Shown here in pieces: positions 2,598-52,476 of a stretch of 64,000 nt of DNA (the stretch's first letter is position 1; every line of letters begins with the position of its first letter). The DNA comes from Entomobacter blattae (lineage in GTDB: Bacteria; Pseudomonadota; Alphaproteobacteria; Acetobacterales; Acetobacteraceae). Both the position numbers and the translations under genes were made by a program. Where the stretch lies: contig NZ_CP060244.1 of NCBI RefSeq assembly GCF_014672835.1, forward strand, positions 62,001 to 126,000. The letters run 5' to 3'. The notes below the pieces were generated by a model, which worked only from the letters and a program-made list of their open reading frames with translations, searched no databases and was not told where the DNA came from.

Positions 2598-5500
2598 CTA
2601 TTCAGCGGCCTCTACATCTCCTTCTGTTGAAGACATTTTCTGAATAGGCTGTGGATCATCCTGAGCAGCAACTGCACGAAGACGATTCATAACACTGCCC
2701 GTTCCCGCAGGAATAAGACGCCCGACAATCACATTTTCTTTCAGCCCATTAAGGGTATCGACTTTACCAGAAGTCGCGGCCTCTGTGAGCACACGAGTCG
2801 TTTCCTGAAACGAGGCTGCAGAAATAAAGGATTGAGTTTGCAATGAGGCCTTGGTAATCCCCTGAAGGACTGGAGTCGCTACCGCAGGCCTTTCATCACG
2901 TGCAAGATATTTACTGTTTTCTTGATCGAACTCAGCCCGATCAACAATTTCTCCGATAAGATATGTTGTATCACCAGGCTCTTGAATTTCGACCTTTTGC
3001 AGCATCTGCCTTACGATGACTTCAATATGTTTATCGTTAATCTTGACACCCTGAAGCCTATAAACACTTTGAATTTCATTAATGAGATATTCCGACAAAG
3101 CTTCAATCCCAAGCACTTTCAAGATATCATGCGGCACCCTAGGACCATCCACCAAAGGATCGCCCTGCATGACAAAATCCCCTTCTTGAACAGAGATATG
3201 TTTCCCTTTGGGAATAAGATAATCCGTCTCTTCCCCCGTTTCATCGTTCTTAATCACAATACGACGCTTGGCCTTATAGTCCTTCCCAAATTCAACACGA
3301 CCTGGTGCTTCAGCAATAATAGCATGATCCTTTGGCCGGCGGGCTTCAAACAGCTCTGCCACACGAGGAAGACCACCAGTGATATCGCGCGTTTTCGAGC
3401 CTTCACGAGGAATACGGGCTAAGACATCCCCTGCATTCACCACAGCGCCGTTCTGTACAGAAAGAAGGGAATCTGGAGACAGGAAGTAACGCGCATCATT
3501 CCCATTTGAGAGTTTAACCACGTTGCTTTTGGCATCTTTAAGTTGAAGCCTTGGGCGTAAATCTACACCCTTCGACGCCTGTTTATAATCCACAACAACC
3601 TTAGAGGTAAGGCCCGTAACCTCATCCATTCGTTCAATAAGGGTTATCCCCTCAATCAGATCAAGATACTCAACCGTGCCAGGCTGTTCGGTTATAATAG
3701 GAAGTGTATAAGGGTCCCACTCCGCCATTTTCTGATGGCGTTCAACTTTGGCACCATCTTCCACCAAAAGCCTCGCCCCGTAGGGCACACGATAACGGGC
3801 GCGCTCTGTACCTTGCTCATCCTTCAAGAGAATCTCACAGTTACGAGACATAATAATAGGCACATTCTGACTATTATGAACGATGTTACGATTGCGGATT
3901 TCTATGACACCATCACGAGAGGCTTCAACCATAGATTGCTCCGCACCACGCTGAGCTGCCCCCCCAATATGGAAGGTTCTCATAGTTAACTGTGTGCCAG
4001 GCTCACCAATGGACTGCGCAGCAATAACACCCACAGCCTCACCAATATTAACCGGAGTCCCACGAGCAAGATCACGCCCATAGCATTTCGCACACACGCC
4101 AACCTTGCTATCACAGGTTAAAACAGAACGAATAAGAACACTCTCAACGCCAGCTTTTTCTATACGCTCAGCATCAGCCTCTTCAATTAAGGTATTAACC
4201 TTGACGATAACTTCGCCTGAAACAGGGTGCACAACATCTGCAGCTGCCGTGCGGCCTAGGACACGCTCTGAAAGGGATGAGATAACCTCGCCCCCGTCCA
4301 TAACGGCACGAAGGCTTAACCCACGTTCTGTTCCGCAGTCCTGTTCAATAATAATGGAATCCTGGGCAACATCTACCAATCGCCGGGTTAGATAGCCTGA
4401 ATTTGCAGTCTTCAGTGCTGTATCGGCCAATCCCTTACGCGCACCATGGGTAGAGGTAAAGTAGTCAAGAACAGATAGCCCTTCCTTAAAGTTAGCTATA
4501 ATGGGCTGCTCAATAATCTCCCCCGAAGGTTTTGCCATAAGCCCACGCATCCCCGCCAGCTGTTTCATCTGCGCTGGCGACCCACGAGCCCCTGAATGAC
4601 TCATCATCCAGACAGAGTTAATAGGCTTACCCTCTTCCTGTTTGGAGATTTCCTTCATCATCGCAGCCTGGACTTCATCCGTGCATCGAGACCAGGCATC
4701 AACAACTTTGTTGTACCGCTCACCTGCAGTAATAAGACCATCCTGATATTGCTGTTCAAACTCTTTAACCTCATTAGCTGTGCGCTCAACGAGAGGCTGC
4801 TTTTCAGCAGGGATAATCATGTCATCCTTACCAAAGGAAATACCTGCTTTAGCGGCTTGGCCAAACCCGAGGCCCATTAAACGATCAGCAAAAATCACAC
4901 ACTCTTTTTGTCCACAATGACGATAGACCATATCGATGACATCAGAGATCGTCTTTTTGGTGAGCTGTTTATTAATAAGGTCGAAGGAGATGGCTGGATT
5001 TTTAGGTAAAATCTGTGCAATGAGCATCCTTCCTGGTGTGGTGACCACAGTCTGGCGAACACTCCTTCCCTCAGCGTCAATTGCTTCATAACGGGCACGG
5101 ATCTTGTCGTGCAGTTTAATGACACCACTATTAAGGGCATATTCTATCTCACCAATCGAGGCAAAGGCCGTAGCACCCACCCTTACCAGCCGACCCTGAT
5201 CATCATACTCGCTCTGGTCAGGCGTATTTCTAAATTCAGGGGTCTCAAGGCTAAGATAATAAAGCCCCAACACAATATCTTGTGACGGCACAATAATCGG
5301 CTTCCCATTGGCAGGGCTGAGAATATTGTTCGTCGACATCATCAACACGCGCGCCTCAAGCTGGGCTTCAAGGCTTAAGGGAACATGCACCGCCATTTGG
5401 TCGCCATCAAAATCGGCATTAAAGGCCGTACAAACCAACGGATGAAGCTGAATAGCTTTACCTTCTACCAAAATGGGCTCAAAGGCCTGAATGCCCAGCC

Positions 5501-6794
5501 GATGCAACGTAGGCGCACGGTTGAGCATAACAGGATGCTCCCGGATCACTTCCTCAAGAATATCCCATACTTCCGGCCGCTCCTTTTCCACCATCCGCTT
5601 TGCAGCCTTGATAGTTGTCGCATGACCATATTTTTCAAGCTTGGAATAAATGAACGGCTTAAACAGCTCCAGTGCCATTTTCTTAGGTAAACCGCACTGA
5701 TGTAATTTGAGCTCAGGACCCACCACAATAACAGAACGACCGGAATAATCCACACGCTTACCAAGAAGGTTCTGACGGAAACGCCCCTGCTTTCCTTTCA
5801 GCATATCAGAAAGAGATTTCAGAGGTCTTTTATTAGCCCCTGTGATGGCTCTCCCCCTACGCCCGTTATCAAACAAAGCATCGACAGATTCCTGAAGCAT
5901 ACGCTTTTCATTACGGACAATAATATCGGGTGCACGCAACTCAATCAGTCTTTTTAGACGATTGTTACGGTTGATCACACGGCGATATAAATCATTCAGG
6001 TCAGAAGTTGCAAAACGCCCTCCATCCAAAGGCACTAAAGGACGTAATTCAGGAGGAATAACAGGAACAATATCAAGAATCATCCATTCCGGACGAACGC
6101 CGCTCTCCGCAAAGGCCTCTACCAACTTCAAACGCTTCACCAGCTTTTTGCGTTTGACTTCTGAATTAGTCTCCTTCAGCTCAACTCGCAGCTTTTCCTT
6201 TTCCTCGTTACAGTCAATGCTAGAGAGAATCTTTTTAATCGCCTCAGCACCAATACCGACTTCAATCCCTTCATCCCCATACTCTTCCATAACACTAAAA
6301 TACTGCTCTTCTGTCAAAAGGCTGTATTGCTTAAGAGGTGAAGTGCCAGGCTCTAGAACAATGTAACTTTCGAAATACAAGACCTTTTCAAGATCCTTAA
6401 GGGTAAAGTCCACCATTAAACCAATACGACTTGGCAATGATTTAAGAAACCATATATGCGCAACTGGGCTAGCCAACTCAATATGGCCCATCCTATCGCG
6501 GCGAACTTTCGCCAAGGTAACCTCTACCCCACATTTTTCACAGACAATCCCACGAAATTTCATACGTTTATACTTACCGCATAAACATTCGTAATCTTTT
6601 ATGGGGCCAAAAATCCGCGCACAGAACAGCCCATCACGCTCTGGTTTGAAAGTACGATAATTAATCGTCTCAGGTTTCTTTACTTCACCATAGGACCACG
6701 AGCGAATCTGCTCAGGTGAAGCCAGCTGAATTTTGATTTGATCAAATGACAATGTTTGGCCATTCTGACCAAGGATCTTCATGATTTCATTCAT
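2598..6794 (-). CDS. rpoC: RNA polymerase subunit beta'
   Basis: RpoC forms, with RpoB, the catalytic cleft of RNA polymerase. The 1398-residue product has the N-terminal zinc cluster ([20 protein letters not shown], about residues 70-90), the catalytic magnesium loop [12 protein letters not shown] near residue 460, the trigger-loop/bridge-helix region and the second zinc site with CYGRDLARG-type sequence near residue 890. Length and domain order are normal for alphaproteobacteria. It follows rpoB after 105 bases and ends at a strong hairpin terminator. Confidence 0.98.
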
Positions 6795-43881: not shown

Positions 43882-43943
43882 GACTTTAAGTCTTTTATCT
43901 TAGCCGAGTGTATTTTATCAGCGATGTATTTGACTAAAATACA

Positions 43944-43974
43944 AAAGAAAGGGGGGAAATTCCCCCTCTTTTTA
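43944..43974. terminator. Terminator after wrbA
   Basis: A G5-C5 stem with AAATT loop and A-run/T-run flanks (43951-43965 core). It works in both directions and may once have also served guaA (see the direct repeat just to its right). Confidence 0.8.
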
Positions 43975-43994
43975 TGGTCAGGCCTTTTTTCTTG

Positions 43995-44028
43995 CACGAT
44001 TCAAAAAAGCCATATCAAAGGGAAAAAC
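43995..44028. repeat. Left 34-bp direct repeat, guaA-derived
   Basis: This matches 50773-50806 (inside guaA) at 33 of 34 positions in the same orientation. Read on the minus strand it encodes [10 protein letters not shown], the conserved GuaA motif, and then diverges and stops. It is thus a broken guaA 3' fragment and a candidate attachment-site copy at the left end of the island. Confidence 0.85.
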
Positions 44029-46042
44029 TATTATATTCTGACGGCTAAGGAGTTTTCTAAAGAATACTTATAACCCACTGGCCTCATCGAGACCATAAAA
44101 AAATCGCTACCCTTTAAAAGAAGGCCTAAGCATATATAACACTATTGGCAAGCTTATGTGTGTTACAGACAGGCTCATTATCCTGGCGGCATTCAATCTA
44201 CTGTTTCGATATAGCTATTAACGGAACATTGACAATACTCTTCAGTTTTTTAAGAAGAAGTAAAAAGCATAGAGGAGGTATCCAACCCGTAACAACCTGC
44301 CCAGAATATTAAATACCAGGATCTTAAAAAGAGACAGCACAAGAAACTTCACCCAATAGGAAATACGTGAAAATAAACCCACCCCCGAATATCACACCTC
44401 ACAGATATCCACGTCTCAACCGACAGGCCGTACCGCATAACTTTCCCTAGGGCCATTCTGGCTTTGTGTGATGAAGGGGAGTGTTCAAAAGAGAGCAATC
44501 AGAAAGGGTGAAGGATCAACCAGACTATCAAAAATTCGCAAATTGTGACTAAAGTCTTACAGGAAATCTCTTCTCCTCGTTCTTCAATACGCATGAGTCT
44601 CAATACTGCTAGTAATACTCTAGCTGCCACCACAGACAAACATCTTTTCATAAGTTTACCAAAATCTTCTCGGCGTAAGGATTAGAAGCACCCTAAAAGC
44701 AGCTCCCTCTAGCCAAAACGGGTCACAAAATAATACCAGCTATCAAATTCTCCGACAGACTTGAGAATAATACACGCTACCAAGGTAAAGAAATCAAAAA
44801 GAAGGTCATCAATGCAAAGACACTGACCTGTCAGCCTTGATGAGTGACCCCGGCCATTATTTTATTTTGATTTCAGCATATGCTCAAAAACTGCACGACA
44901 TAAAGTGCAGGTGTTAGAAACCATCGGGTGTCCACACACCCATTTTTCAACCCATAATACATAGAACATTTTCGCATCCTTAATACGGTCCTTACCTCAT
45001 GCTTTCTCCTTGGTTAATTCCCCTTTGGCTAATTCCCGATAGGAGATTCTCTTAACTTCTCTTCTCCCCATCCCACTCACGGGCATTCCGCTAAGCTGAT
45101 CGTGTAAGAGCGAACAGCATTACTCTCTTCTTCGCTGTGGATCACATCATGATAGTGAAGCAAAATCGAACCTTCAAAAATGGTAAAATTATAAAAATAG
45201 ATATGAGGATCCAGACACCAGCCCCTTACAGGTCTTTCACCTCATAAAGCTTGTCCTTTAACGTGAGGTTACGAGGCTTGATATCGGCCGGAGCAGCTTT
45301 TACACCGATTCAGCACAAAAACCATGATCTACCCTCTACCCAGTTCTGATGTAAAACGTAAACAATCAACGCATCACGTAAAGCCCACCCCATATTGAGA
45401 TCCGTGCAGAGCACAAGTGGCATTGGCCATTCGTTGACTGATAGATGCTTCTCGTAAGCGTGATGAGAATACCATAGCACCAGAAAAGATGGGTAACATT
45501 AAAGCCTCTCAAGGCAGTAATAATCTGGTGCCACCCTCCAACTATATAGAACTACTCTTTTGCCTGTAAGCCTCTCTCCTAGCAGAAGCAACCCATCTTT
45601 CTGCCCTTCATGCTGCACAAGATGAGGAGCGTAGATCGGAAAGAAGGTAAAAAAGCACGCCACTTAAGCCCAAACAGAAAACACTACTCCCCAACGACAA
45701 GAACGACCAGCCGATCAGGCACAGTTACCAAAAAGGCTCCTCTGATAATAGTAATAGACTAGAGCCCCTCTTTAGCGTTTATCTAATCAAGGGATCCTAC
45801 TCAATTATAAACAATCAAATTTTTAATAGAAAATTCAGTATTTTAAATCGCAACATGGTTTTAATACCATAAAAAATACCAAGAGTAGTCTAGAGAGCCT
45901 GACTCATCTAAGAATACGACCGTTTCAAGCACCGCTCACAGTGGCCTTGGGTTTCGATGATGGTTGCTCCAGTGAATATGCCGTTATGAACTAACTCCAT
46001 CTACCAGAAACTACGCCCTCTATGCATCATCTGGAGGCCATT
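44029..46042. other. 2-kb gene desert with decayed coding DNA
   Basis: No intact gene. On the minus strand a chain of fragments in shifting frames is visible between about 44,870 and 45,720, for example a segment reading PDRLVVLVVGE near 45,700, VLYSW near 45,550, GFNVTHLFW near 45,490, NEWPMPLVLCTDLNMGWALR near 45,390, RGWCLDPHIYFYNFTIFEG near 45,180 and CGHPMVSNTCTLC near 44,920. Stops and frameshifts break it into pieces, so it is a relic of one or more genes of unknown family. The left half, 44,030-44,860, shows nothing recognisable. Confidence 0.6.
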
Positions 46043-49000
46043 TCAGCTTGCCGCACCCAACACGTAAAGCCTCCACCAGTCTGGTGCCGCCGGGCAACCA
46101 GCCTGGTGGAGGCTAGGCTTGAGATCAACAGCCGATTTCTTGAACGCACCGACACGTTGATAGTCGGGTGTTATCAGCCAAATCCGCCCATCGCCCTCGT
46201 TGATAACTATGCGATAGAAGCCAGCCTGCGGGACTATCACAGTGTCATCAAGCAGATGCTTGTAATGTTCGACTGACCATTTCTGAATGCCGCCGTTAAG
46301 GGCGTCGGTTCGAAACCGCACCCACAGCGCAGCCGTATCGGGCGTGGGCTTGTCGCTGGCGTCAGTGTAGGCTGTGATCTCGTCGGACTCAAGCCAAGCC
46401 CGCATCCCAGCTGGCGTGACGAAGACCGACTTAGCATCTTTGATCGCCGCCATGGCCGCACGCCGCGAAGGAAGTCCCGCGCGAATCAGCATCGACATCA
46501 TAAATTGCGGGACGCCAGTTTCGACCGCTGCTGCGCCGCCACCCGCCACCTTCTCCGGCAACCAACCGAATGACATGCGGCGGGTACGAACAGCTTCCAA
46601 AGCCCAGACCAAACGATAGGTGAATGCCTCCTCAACGACTCGCATGTTCTGGGGTCCGATTTTGGCCACATCCTCACCAGACACCCAACTACGCAAGATA
46701 GCCCTCCAATTCACCGGTAATGCGTTCGCCTTATCGGGGATGAAAGGTCGCATGAATAGCAGACGTTCACCGAGACCGCCGAGCGCATCAACAAGTGCCT
46801 CGACGTCGCCACTCAATGCCGCATTGTCTGCTCGATCTAGAAGTTCGGCCAGCTCGTCAGCCATGGCGTCGATTTGCAGACCAGCCTCGAGTCCGACATC
46901 CATGGCGAAATGCCCACGTCGCGCCTGCGCCGTGGTGGTTTTCCAGATGAGATCGGCGCGAGCCTCGAACACCTTCTTATGCTGCGAGGCGACACCCTTG
47001 TCCTCACGCGCGATCTGGCGTGCCCAGAGCGATCCCTTGAGCGCATCGTCCAAGAGCTTCGGCAGGTCAGAACGATCGGAGTCGAGTGCTTCGATCAGAC
47101 CAAATACCGTTGCGTCTAGACGCTCGACGATCTGTGATAGTGACTCCTTTTCGATGGTTTCCTCATTGTCGCCATTAGCACCAGACTTCGTGCCAGTCAT
47201 CAAGGGCTCTACGACTTTAGCTCCTTCCTCGGGGGATATCCAAGCTTCACGTGCGTTGGCCAAATATTCCCAAGCATCATCACGATCCAGAACACCTTTA
47301 CGGGCCAGCCTCTCAAGAATCTCGGCGATAATCTGGATGAGACCGCTCTTCAGCGTTCGGGCCTTGGCGGAAGCCACTAACTTCCTCCATTTATTTTTTC
47401 GACAGTTGACATTATCGAACATGATATGAACGATGAGGCCTTCAACATCCACAAAGGCGCGCCCTGCGCGACCAGCAACGTTCGCGAATTCCTTTCCTTT
47501 GATCATCTCGGATGCCCGATACAACATTGGCACCAACAGGACAGCGGCGTTGAGGTTGAGACCCTGAGACAACGTCGGCGACGCGACAATGACCCGCAGG
47601 ACACCTTCGGACAGAAGGGCTTCCAGTTCGCGAAGGAACGAGCTCGGCGGTCGCCGTGGTGGATAGCAACGCCGACCTTTAGGCAGGCGACGGTTGGATG
47701 GTCTTCGCCCAACCACTCTTTGCCGACCTCCAGAGCGCGGGCGATCGAGGCTTCATCCTCCAACAGTGAGTCCAGATAACCGCGTTTGCGGAGGTCCACC
47801 ACCTGTTTACCGTAGCTCTCGATCCAATTCGCTTGGGTGGAGAAGATCAGTGTCCGCTTGCCCTGGCCCGCGAATTCCCATGCTGCGAACAGGGTGAGAT
47901 GCGAGTTCTTGCGCGGATAGGGCTTCGTCTCTTTCCCCTGTGCGGCTTTCTCCACGACGAATTTGTCGAGGAACGGACCATCATTGTCATCGAGGTCTAG
48001 CCGGAGCTGCGCGTCCTTGCCTCGCCAGGCGAGCGTGCCGAACCGCTGCCGTGTGAGGCGCCAATCGGAACGCACAGGCTCACCCGGATCAGAGCGTATC
48101 CACGCTGTAAGGTCATCCAGCTCATCACCGCTGGGCAGGATCGCAGACAAACAAACGATACGACGTTCGCCTGCGTCAGCGCGCCGAAGCAGACGCTGCA
48201 CGAGGATTTCATAGCGGATCTCGCGTTCACTGGAACCAATCATGTGGCCTTCATCGAGAACAATCAGACCGACATTGTTGATCAGCGATGGGTCGCTTCT
48301 CAGCGCAAAATCAAGTTTCTCGGGCGTCGCGATGATGATCTCGCGCGTGCGCAGTACGTCTTCATCGCCAGCCGAAAGGCCACTAGCACCGTAAAGGGAG
48401 GAAACGCTGAAGCCGAGCGGTGCGAATGTTTTTCTGAATGATCGCTAGGTCTGGACGGACAGTGCACGCAGCGGCGTCACGATCAACATCCGGCACGCCA
48501 ACGACAGAGTCATCAGTGCGGCAATCTCCGCCACGCGAGTCTTGCCGGCACTGGTCGGCAGGGAGACGACTAAATCGTCGGTGACATCCGTGGAACGCCG
48601 AGCTGCTTCGCGCTGTGATGGCCATAGCTCCACCTCGGACGTCTTGAGGGCGTAGAGCGACGAGATAAACAGCCGGCGCAGATCAGGGTATTTTTCCTCT
48701 GTTCCCTCCGGCGGTTCAATCGGTAAATTTGCGTGCAGAGAATGCTGTCAGAGGTCATCGATCAGGTGACGACAGAGGTTAGAGATCCACCACAGCGGAA
48801 CATTCCCTACGTTGTCCGCCAAGCTGACTGCGGTGATGAGCAGCATCCGCGCGGTCTCGATTGACTCAGATTCGTCCGTCTCGAGCGCAAATCGAAACAC
48901 GCCAGTGCCCGGCATATCGTCGTGTTGAGGATTGCCGATAAAGCCTCGTCGATGTCAGACTCTTTGCCCCTCAACGCCTTAACGATCTCCCCATCTTCGT

Positions 49001-49490
49001 GAGCCTGATCGCCCAACCAATCGCGAACGAATCCTCGCAACTGGCCAAGATCACGCAAGATCAAATGCCGGATCGCCGTTTCACCCGGCGACGCATTGAG
49101 ATCATCCGTGACATCGTTGAAGAGCGAATAGGCAAGGGCCGAAAAGCCAGCCAGATGATAGGCTACAGCGGCGATCGTGCGGTGAAAACCGCGATCAGGG
49201 GACTTCGGATCGCCGTTGCGTACCAAGGATTCAAAGGCGATTGCGGCGCACTCGAACGCCTTGTTTGTCAGATCCGACGCACCGGCCTGAGCACGCAGAG
49301 CCATCGATCCACGGAGCAAGGCAAAACCGTATTCGGCAAGATCAGTTTCGATCATCGGACCTAGTGACGGAGCGTTCGTAGGCAACACGCCTTTCTCGCG
49401 CATTAACGACCAAGCAACGCCACGATAGAGCAGGCCATCATCTTCCGTCGCGGTAGTCAAGAACGTGGTTAGTTCGTCAATTGTTTCCAA
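46043..49490 (-). pseudogene. hamB: Hachiman helicase HamB, disrupted
   Basis: HamB is the superfamily 2 helicase of the Hachiman antiphage system. Translating across breaks restores one protein of about 1150 residues: a helical N-terminus (49490-48930), LPTSAGKTRVAEIA (motif I), LIVLDEGHMIG (motif II, DEGH), CLSAILPSG (motif III), ASPTLSQGLNLNAAV, and GRAGRA (motif VI). Lesions: a frameshift near 48930, TGA at 48748-48750 where Trp is expected, TAG at 48445-48447 where Glu is expected, and a frameshift near 47650. The start is TTG at 49490 with AGGAGG nine bases upstream. The gene is visibly G+C-rich. It is almost certainly nonfunctional. Confidence 0.85.
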
Positions 49491-50348
49491 GATTTTCCGC
49501 CTCCTGGTACACGGCTGTGATAAAATGCTGGTGATCTACGACGTGGATTTTACTACGTAGTGATTACAATTCGTCCCTACGGCGTCGAGGTCCTCTTTCA
49601 ACGATGCATGCGGACCGTTACCCGACACGGTGAAAAGCATATGGTCGATGCAGTCGGCACAGAGGGACTTCATATCCCCCTCGTCGCGAAGGCTACGACC
49701 AAGCAGGTTGTCGTGCCGGTCATTACTCTCCAGGAGACGGTCTGCGACAAACAGGAGGGAAGCGGGCGTGCAGCGGCCGTTGTCACGATTCAGCACCTCG
49801 CGAGCGCTCGTAACCGTTTTCTTGCTAAGCACCTTATTGCTCTTGGCCTCCCCCTTAAGAAGCCAGAGCCTCTTGTCAGCCCCTTTGTATCCAACGCCGA
49901 TGAAGTCGTCACCGCGCATGACCACATTGCGGCCGTCCTTATAACGGAGACGGCACACCGGCACACGTAGGTCAACCTCTTCCTCGACCAGTTCCACCGC
50001 AAGAATTTCCCCGAGATCGCCGGACCGGCTTTCAGCAGTTTGCGGCAATTTTGCACTAAGAATCTGGGCTGCGCCCTTATATCCGAGGCGCTTCACGTCT
50101 TCGGCTATGCGTTCAAGGCGGTCGTAGTGCGACCGAATAGTCTTGACGAGGTCTGCGCGAATCTCGTTTCGACCGCCGTTCCTCTCAACATAGATCCAGT
50201 AGTACTTGCGCTTATCGCCTTTTTTTGTGGCTTTGCACCACCATTCGTACAGTCCCACGCAACCTCCAATCGACCACCCATGCCTCATTCGTAGTGTGAT
50301 TCCACACATGCTTCCAGCCGACTTGGAGGATGTGATCCAATTGAGCAC
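49477..50348 (-). pseudogene. hamA: Hachiman nuclease HamA (DUF1837), 3' frameshift
   Basis: HamA is a DUF1837 nuclease that works with HamB. The open frame (49536-50348, 270 residues) has the family motifs: SGDLGEILAVEL near residue 109, RGDDFIG near 145 and GEAKS near 166, the likely PD-(D/E)xK-type active site. A one-base loss near 49551 ends the frame early; in the next frame a natural tail, VVDHQHFITAVYQEAENLG, continues to a stop at 49477 that overlaps the hamB TTG start by 14 bases. This overlap is typical of coupled genes and shows that the end was lost. The start is GTG without a good binding site. DUF1837 assignment is by motif only. Confidence 0.8.
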
Positions 50349-50680
50349 AGTCAGAACACTATCAGTTGAGCGAATAATATTCTATTGAAAATATTATTAC
50401 AATTTAGAGGCCGTTTCGAAAGGGGTTAAGGAGCCGGAGTTCGGATGATTCCAAGGAGTGGCGAGCTCTTGGAGATTGTCATGTGGATCCCAACCACCCT
50501 TCAGCTGGCATCAGATTCAGATAGTACCACCTATCATGCCATACAAATACGGGTCTTGGCGTTGCATAAATTTGCTAGACAGTGCCAAGCCAAGAATGAA
50601 AAAAACCCAAAGTTACGCAGGTTTAGCTGCTATCTCATCTATCTCATGCTCTTTCGTGCCGGTCCATGACGGACACGGGA
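50349..50680. other. hamA-guaA intergenic region
   Basis: About 330 bases between hamA and the guaA stop; composition shifts from G+C-rich back toward host-like. Open frames on the plus strand look like shadows. A weak hairpin with a T run near 50,600 may be the guaA terminator, and a GTTGCATAAATTT segment near 50,560 resembles an IS5-family end only loosely. Confidence 0.4.
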
Positions 50681-52285
50681 TCACTCCCACTCTATTGTTC
50701 CCGGTGGCTTGGATGTCACATCGTAAGTCACACGGTTTATGCCCCTCACCTCATTGACAATACGGCTTGCCACACGATTCAGAAAAGCCATATCAAAGGG
50801 AAAAACCTCTGCGGTCATACCATCAGTGCTGGTAACAGCCCGCAAGGCGCATACCCTATCATACGTACGGCCATCACCCATAACACCCACACTTCGCACT
50901 GGTAACAACACCGCAAAAGCCTGCCAAATGGCATCATAAAGGCCAACCTGGCGAATCTCTTCTAGGAAGATACTGTCAACCTTTCGCAAAAGGGTGAGTT
51001 TCTCAGCTGTAACTTCCCCAGGAATTCGGATGGCAAGGCCTGGGCCAGGAAATGGGTGGCGGCCGATAACAACCTCTGGTAAGCCAAGCTCACGCCCTAA
51101 GGCCCTAACCTCATCTTTAAACAGCTCGCGCAGGGGTTCCACCAGCTTCATTTTCATCCGCTCTGGTAATCCCCCAACATTGTGATGAGATTTAATGGTG
51201 ACTGAAGGCCCTCCTGTAAAACTGACACTTTCAATAACATCGGGGTATAATGTTCCCTGAGCAAGGAAGTCTGCCCCCCCAAGCTTTACGGCTTCCTCCT
51301 CAAAGACTTCAATAAATAGGCGCCCTATAATTTTACGCTTCTGCTCTGGATCGGTAACACCTTTGAGATTCTCCAAGAACAATGCCGTTGCATCACGATG
51401 GACAAGATTAATATTGTATTTCTGTCGAAAAGTCCGAACCACATCTTCAGCTTCCCCTACACGCAATAGCCCATGATCTACAAAAATACAGGTCAGCTGA
51501 TCGCCAATCGCTTCATGCAGCAAAATAGCAGCAACAGAGGAATCGACCCCACCTGATAGGCCGCAAATAACCTTTTCCTTCCCCACCTGTTCGCGGATAT
51601 GGGCAATCTCCATCTCCTTAAAGCCGGCCATTGTCCATTGCCCCTTACAGCCAGCAACACCATGAGTAAAGTTTTTCAGTAAAATGGCCCCGTGAGGGGT
51701 ATGAACAACCTCCGGATGGAACTGAACACCATATAGCCTGCGCCGCTCATCTGAAATAATGGCAAAAGGAGCCCCTTCACTAGTCCCCACCACCTGAAAC
51801 CCAGGGGGAAGTTTTACTACCCTATCCCCATGGCTCATCCAAACCTGCTCCCGATTTCCTTTCGACCAGACCCCACGAAAAAGGGCACTATCTTCCTGAA
51901 TATCCACAAACGCACGCCCAAATTCCCGATGGTCTGAATTCTCAACCTTTCCGCCAAGCTGTTCACACATTGCCTGCTGACCATAGCATATTCCCAAAAC
52001 AGGTAGCCCCAACTCAAAGACAATGGAAGGAATCCGTGGAGAATGAGCCTCTGTTACACTTGCTGGCCCACCAGAAAGAATAACCCCTTTCGGATGAAAT
52101 TGACGAATACGCTCAGCAGAAACATTAAAGGGCCATATCTCGCAATAAACGCCACTCTCCCTTACACGGCGTGCAATTAACTGGGTCACCTGACTTCCAA
52201 AATCCAAAATAAGAATACGGTCATCGTGAAGGGTTTTTTCCAGATATGCGACACCTTGAGAGGGTTGTTGGGCCGTGGAATTCAT
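50681..52285 (-). CDS. guaA: GMP synthase (glutamine-hydrolysing)
   Basis: GuaA makes GMP from XMP with glutamine ammonia. The N-terminal class I amidotransferase domain has [15 protein letters not shown] and catalytic GICYGQQAM; the ATP-pyrophosphatase domain has [12 protein letters not shown]; the C-terminal dimerisation domain ends in the typical PPGTIEWE. The ATG at 52285 is chosen over a TTG three codons upstream; 534 residues. The 3' end of this gene is a well-known target for genomic islands, and here 34 bases of it (50773-50806) are duplicated at 43995. Confidence 0.96.
50773..50806. repeat. Right 34-bp direct repeat, inside guaA
   Basis: This is the intact copy of the repeat at 43995-44028, lying about 92-125 bases before the guaA stop. 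It encodes the [10 protein letters not shown] segment. The distance between the two copies is 6,778 bases. Differs at one position from the left copy. Confidence 0.9.
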
Positions 52286-52476
52286 AGGTTTCAAACTTTC
52301 TTACCAAACAAAGAATGGGAGAACGACACGTATTAATATATTTTTTTAACGAGAGAATAAACCATTAAAGCCAGAATGCCTTAATTATGATTTTATATGA
52401 GAGCCAAAATTTCTATATTTGGGGTTTCTCTCTTTCATTTGAGCCCGAATAAAACCAAAGCAGACGGACAATATCC

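Follow-up and report, generated by a model that had tools for sequence, protein, structure and literature searches.

The window analysed here, a 64,000-nt stretch of the Entomobacter blattae genome, carries between 46.0 and 50.35 kb on its minus strand a hamA gene with the pieces of a hamB gene just 3' of it. As read from the assembly, these form a pseudogene pair of the Hachiman family and not a working member of it. The best explanation, to which we assign a probability of about 0.92, is that a Hachiman island inserted at guaA and then lost its mobility and its companion genes, and that hamA and hamB decayed. The locus is thus a known system at a known hotspot in ordinary decay: a fossil and no new system, but one that is unusually readable.

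The HamA ORF (49536-50348, minus strand) matches the Pfam HamA profile PF08878 (E 5e-20), so the DUF1837/HamA domain is present, and the PADLOC profile HamA PDLC00159 (E 6e-92). Its E-x-K catalytic motif is kept as KGEAKS, aligned with KTEAKS of 8vx9_A (E138 and K140 of ECOR31). The hamB pseudogene (46022-49490, minus strand) consists of five ORF pieces that match, in order, a single PADLOC profile, HamB PDLC00174 (length 1163), at positions 2-216, 212-261, 302-362, 431-630 and 632-1142, and it keeps the DEGH motif (VGLIVLDEGH). The pieces are thus collinear with the profile over positions 2-1142. The Bordetella hinzii orthologues of the two proteins match solved ECOR31 proteins, namely HamA (8vx9, E 6e-35) and HamB (8vx9_B, E 7e-241). 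The assignment of the gene pair to Hachiman in an earlier note on this DNA is borne out by the HamA and HamB profile matches and the DEGH motif, and it had placed the genes correctly, while the island reaches past them on both sides. In the window, the HamA domain, the nuclease residues and an adjacent Ski2-like DEGH-box helicase are all found; complete open hamA and hamB frames are lacking owing to six disabling lesions. The locus resembles ECOR31 Hachiman (PDB 8vx9, PMC12278908) in its gene pair, their order, the HamA nuclease family with E-x-K and the Ski2-like HamB helicase with its DEGH motif. It differs in that both genes are broken and in that the top PADLOC profiles are HamB1 PDLC00174 and HamA1 PDLC00159.

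The lesions were mapped by aligning the window copy with seven relatives, an alignment that leaves the positions of the deletions uncertain by a few bases. Against the intact relatives, hamA has lost a single nucleotide near 49548. In hamB, one nucleotide has gone at each of three places, near 48891, 47653 and 46108, and two nonsense codons lie in frame, TGA at 48750 and TAG at 48447. The window copy also differs from the relatives by in-frame lengths of 3, 9 and 24 nt. The hamA frameshift comes late, at about codon 253 of the 277 in the B. hinzii protein, and only the C-terminal tail is lost; from the N-terminal part of HamB, about 204 residues are encoded by the first ORF. The earlier note had held both genes to be inactivated, and the comparison with intact relatives agrees. 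Its hamA frameshift and two hamB nonsense codons are found as described, whereas its count of two hamB frameshifts falls short by a third near the 3' end. It should be noted that the individual lesions are read from the assembly sequence. Beside the third hamB frameshift, the 3' end of the gene contains an 18-bp near-perfect inverted repeat (46068-46114); this palindrome has no second copy in the genome and was set aside.

When one genome per species was searched, 47 related ham loci were obtained, mostly in Alphaproteobacteria and some in Beta- and Gammaproteobacteria. An open near-full-length hamB is found in 43 of them and an open hamA in 43. Intact copies, a point that the earlier note left to comparison with relatives, are present in at least 40 other genomes. 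The C-terminal piece of the window hamB is 60-84% identical to the related loci. Four conjugative rhizobial plasmids carry the hamAB pair, among them one of Sinorhizobium fredii (NZ_CP029234.1) on which it is intact, and integrase genes lie near the pair in 16 other loci, mostly of another integrase family than that of B. hinzii. Three further ham loci are apparently damaged: one has a short hamA (L016, 5684-6166), one a split hamB (L023, 6050-7288 and 7140-9659), and one a deletion through which hamA and the C-terminal half of hamB share a single 711-aa frame (L033, 7431-9566).

The closest ham pair is that of B. hinzii LMG 13501 (NZ_LRUJ01000008.1, locus L003), which lies directly 3' of guaA and is collinear with the window hamA-hamB at 88% nucleotide identity (89% for hamB alone). 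The B. hinzii island is limited by GAGTGGGA at L003:238, at the guaA stop, and by GAGTGGGA at L003:11741, and it encodes a tyrosine integrase, a resolvase, a ribbon-helix-helix/ParE pair, a further HTH protein, HamA, HamB and an OLD-type ATPase with a TOPRIM domain. In the window, guaA (GMP synthase; 50681-52294, minus strand; Pfam GMP_synt_C and GATase; at most 81% identical to relatives) is an intact host gene. At its stop lies the attachment core GAGTGGGA (50685-50692, minus strand), which matches that at L003:238 and marks the proximal island end. A noncoding end segment (50506-50680, minus strand) follows with nucleotide similarity to the B. hinzii island, and window 50757-50506 is 72.6% identical to L003:173-415 beside the B. 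hinzii guaA. At the other end, a distal segment (45795-45965, minus strand) matches the right end of the B. hinzii island (L003:11579-11748) with 79% nucleotide identity over 171 nt. Homology to L003 stops at a degenerate core, GAGTAGGA (45795-45802, minus strand), which retains 7/8 of GAGTGGGA and stands, at 45802, opposite the GAGTGGGA of L003:11741. The putative distal boundary is based mainly on the end of homology, the core being short and degenerate.

The published guaA island GIsul2 uses the same core, GAGTGGGA (PMC9376610). The window island shares with GIsul2-type islands the insertion at the guaA 3' end and this core, which a homologous end segment adjoins; the cargo of GIsul2 is a resistance unit (PMC9376610), whereas that of the window island is Hachiman. 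No tyrosine integrase gene stands beside guaA: PF00589 finds none in the island, and the 11 integrases that it detects across the genome all lie outside it. Compared with B. hinzii, the window copy is short of about 6.7 kb in total: about 4.8 kb from the guaA-hamA interval (L003:415-5233) and about 1.9 kb 3' of hamB. The segments lost are those of the integrase, the resolvase, the ParE-type toxin and the OLD-ATPase. Thus, while the two islands have in common the guaA-stop site, the GAGTGGGA core, both end segments and the collinear hamA-hamB, the B. hinzii island has open genes for the integrase, resolvase, ParE-type toxin, HamA, HamB and OLD-ATPase, and the window copy has broken ham genes and the ends only. 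The OLD-type ATPase gene with TOPRIM (L003 9813-11561), which in B. hinzii directly follows hamB and which the window copy lacks, is possibly a companion defence gene. The earlier note had described the decay as single-base events; this is accurate within the two genes and not for the decay as a whole, in which the 4.8-kb and 1.9-kb segments have also gone. At the 3' end of guaA, the ham pair lies in the remnant of an integrative island that has collapsed and is no longer mobile. An empty insertion site could not be shown because the guaA-wrbA neighbourhood differs among relatives. The guaA-targeted island, its two end sites, a worn integrase piece and a guaA repeat (the last two taken up below) are new with respect to the earlier note.

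The coding sequence of hamB has also changed in ways that do not depend on the breaks. At 483 HamB positions that are invariant in 43 intact proteins, the window copy is changed at 23 (19 missense changes, two stops and two frameshifted codons). The median for the intact proteins is 1, and the single high value (L032) belongs to a protein with a shorter N-terminal frame. Polarisation with six outgroups assigns 127 synonymous and 119 nonsynonymous changes to the window branch and 54 and 19 to the B. hinzii branch, and the spectrum-corrected omega values of the two branches are 0.57 and 0.22, respectively. These values suggest a neutral share of about 46% (25-67%) for the window branch. Since 11% of fourfold sites have changed on that branch, the neutral divergence since constraint was lost would be roughly 5%. 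The lower end of the 25-67% range may be nearer, as only two in-frame stops are seen where a neutral model predicts about five. The decay, which the earlier note called recent, is so in relative terms only, as a share of neutral sites changed. A HamA search of 60 same-family genomes gave only two other positives and no sister copy for dating, and when 40 relatives were searched for HamB, the only hit was a weak and distant one. Base changes run strongly in one direction (211 GC>AT vs. 23 AT>GC), and the G+C content of the island is 55-59% vs. 40-50% in the flanks; the GC>AT excess fits a stay of the island in a host whose G+C is lower.

These data bear on whether the system is in fact intact, with errors of sequencing or assembly behind its frameshifts and stops. 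Among the six lesions, the four 1-nt deletions are of a kind that long reads often introduce by error, but the other two are substitutions to stop codons, and the 19 missense changes at invariant HamB positions and the raised omega are both independent of indels. The absence of some 6.7 kb that the B. hinzii island has points the same way. Because rpoC (1398 aa), rpoB (1403 aa), glnE (GlnE, 1043 aa) and guaA, all nearby, are open, we consider such errors very unlikely.

Somewhat less probable still is that part of the locus works, with a near-complete HamA, possibly together with an N-terminal HamB fragment, being made for a use of its own. HamA is short of its tail only, retaining about 253 of 277 residues and E-x-K, and the DEGH motif of HamB survives, all of which speaks against a dead locus; moreover, the first HamB ORF of about 204 residues falls in the region that contributes to HamA binding in ECOR31 (PMC12278908). 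However, hamB as a whole is under relaxed constraint, published mutants without either activity lose defence (PMC12278908), and the same arrangement is seen in no relative among 46 loci. We likewise think it improbable, to a similar degree, that hamA and the putative HamA-binding piece of HamB would still be expressed and have been retained as a remnant in reduced or regulatory form. That the lesions are programmed, with full proteins made by frameshifting or readthrough, is barely credible: conserved sequence flanks each break and nothing else favours it, whereas both proteins are unbroken in the intact relatives, all six separate breaks would need decoding, and constraint is relaxed.

Beyond the distal core, traces of what may be another element are found. 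The N-terminal half of a tyrosine integrase gene survives there in worn form, with stops (44856-45285, minus strand), as detected by DNA matches and by tblastn with the B. hinzii island integrase, in three collinear pieces (E 1.5e-10); no PF00589 match is left there. This piece probably belongs to a second, older tandem element at guaA. A third GAGTGGGA, at 45071 inside the integrase piece, was taken as chance. Farther out, at the distal edge of the gene-poor region, a 34-nt segment (43995-44028, in guaA orientation) copies guaA codons ~497-507 at 33/34 positions. It is one of only two copies in the genome and lies 6.8 kb from that in guaA itself. As an attachment site of the ham island this repeat was rejected, because the B. 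hinzii comparison puts one core at the stop of guaA and the other near 45802. Two related genomes have a second guaA 3' end (58-62 codons) 3.3-3.8 kb after guaA. In L091 (G013:C316), the ends lie at 1571-1736 and 5593-5758 and the insert includes a PIN-domain gene; in L092 (G024:C51), they lie at 1487-1681 and 4978-5170 and the insert includes a D12 methyltransferase, a ParB-like gene and an Mrr-type endonuclease. By analogy, the 34-nt repeat of the window is probably a remnant of a guaA tail displaced by the older element, and guaA may be a hotspot for defence cargo in this group. About 2.1 kb of the window (43882-46020) has no ORF over ~56 aa and is likely the decayed rest of older inserts.

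Taken together, the favoured history of guaA insertion followed by decay runs as follows. A Hachiman-bearing integrative island entered the guaA 3' end via the GAGTGGGA core, as the undamaged-looking island of B. hinzii does; in the window host, the integrase and the companion genes were deleted, hamA and hamB gathered frameshifts and stop codons, and the island DNA has been drifting to the lower G+C of the host. We observe the gene identities, the lesions, the end segments, the deletions and the relaxed constraint, infer from them the order of events and the lack of function, and draw for the mechanism of the ancestor on published work with HamAB of E. coli ECOR31. In a working Hachiman system, HamB, a Ski2-like sensor helicase, restrains the HamA nuclease; DNA damage or free or phage DNA ends lead to helicase activity, by which HamA is freed and the DNA of the cell destroyed, and mutation of HamA E138/K140 or of HamB D431 abolishes defence (PMC12278908). 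The loss may stem from relaxed selection or from autoimmunity, the two causes that the earlier note named. Since the toxicity of Hachiman is set off by DNA damage (PMC12278908), a cost of the system to its host is plausible. A HamAB complex like that of the relatives is predicted not to form from the window genes, because there is no single frame for full HamB and HamA is without its C-terminal tail. The locus most likely provides no Hachiman defence today.

The window locus leaves the known mechanism of Hachiman unchanged. What it offers is a readable death of an acquired defence system, from the arrival of an island at guaA through deletion and point lesions to base-composition drift, for which the undamaged-looking B. 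hinzii island serves as the template for comparison. Going by domain scores, annotation tools would still report Hachiman genes at this locus, which advises caution for counts of defence systems.
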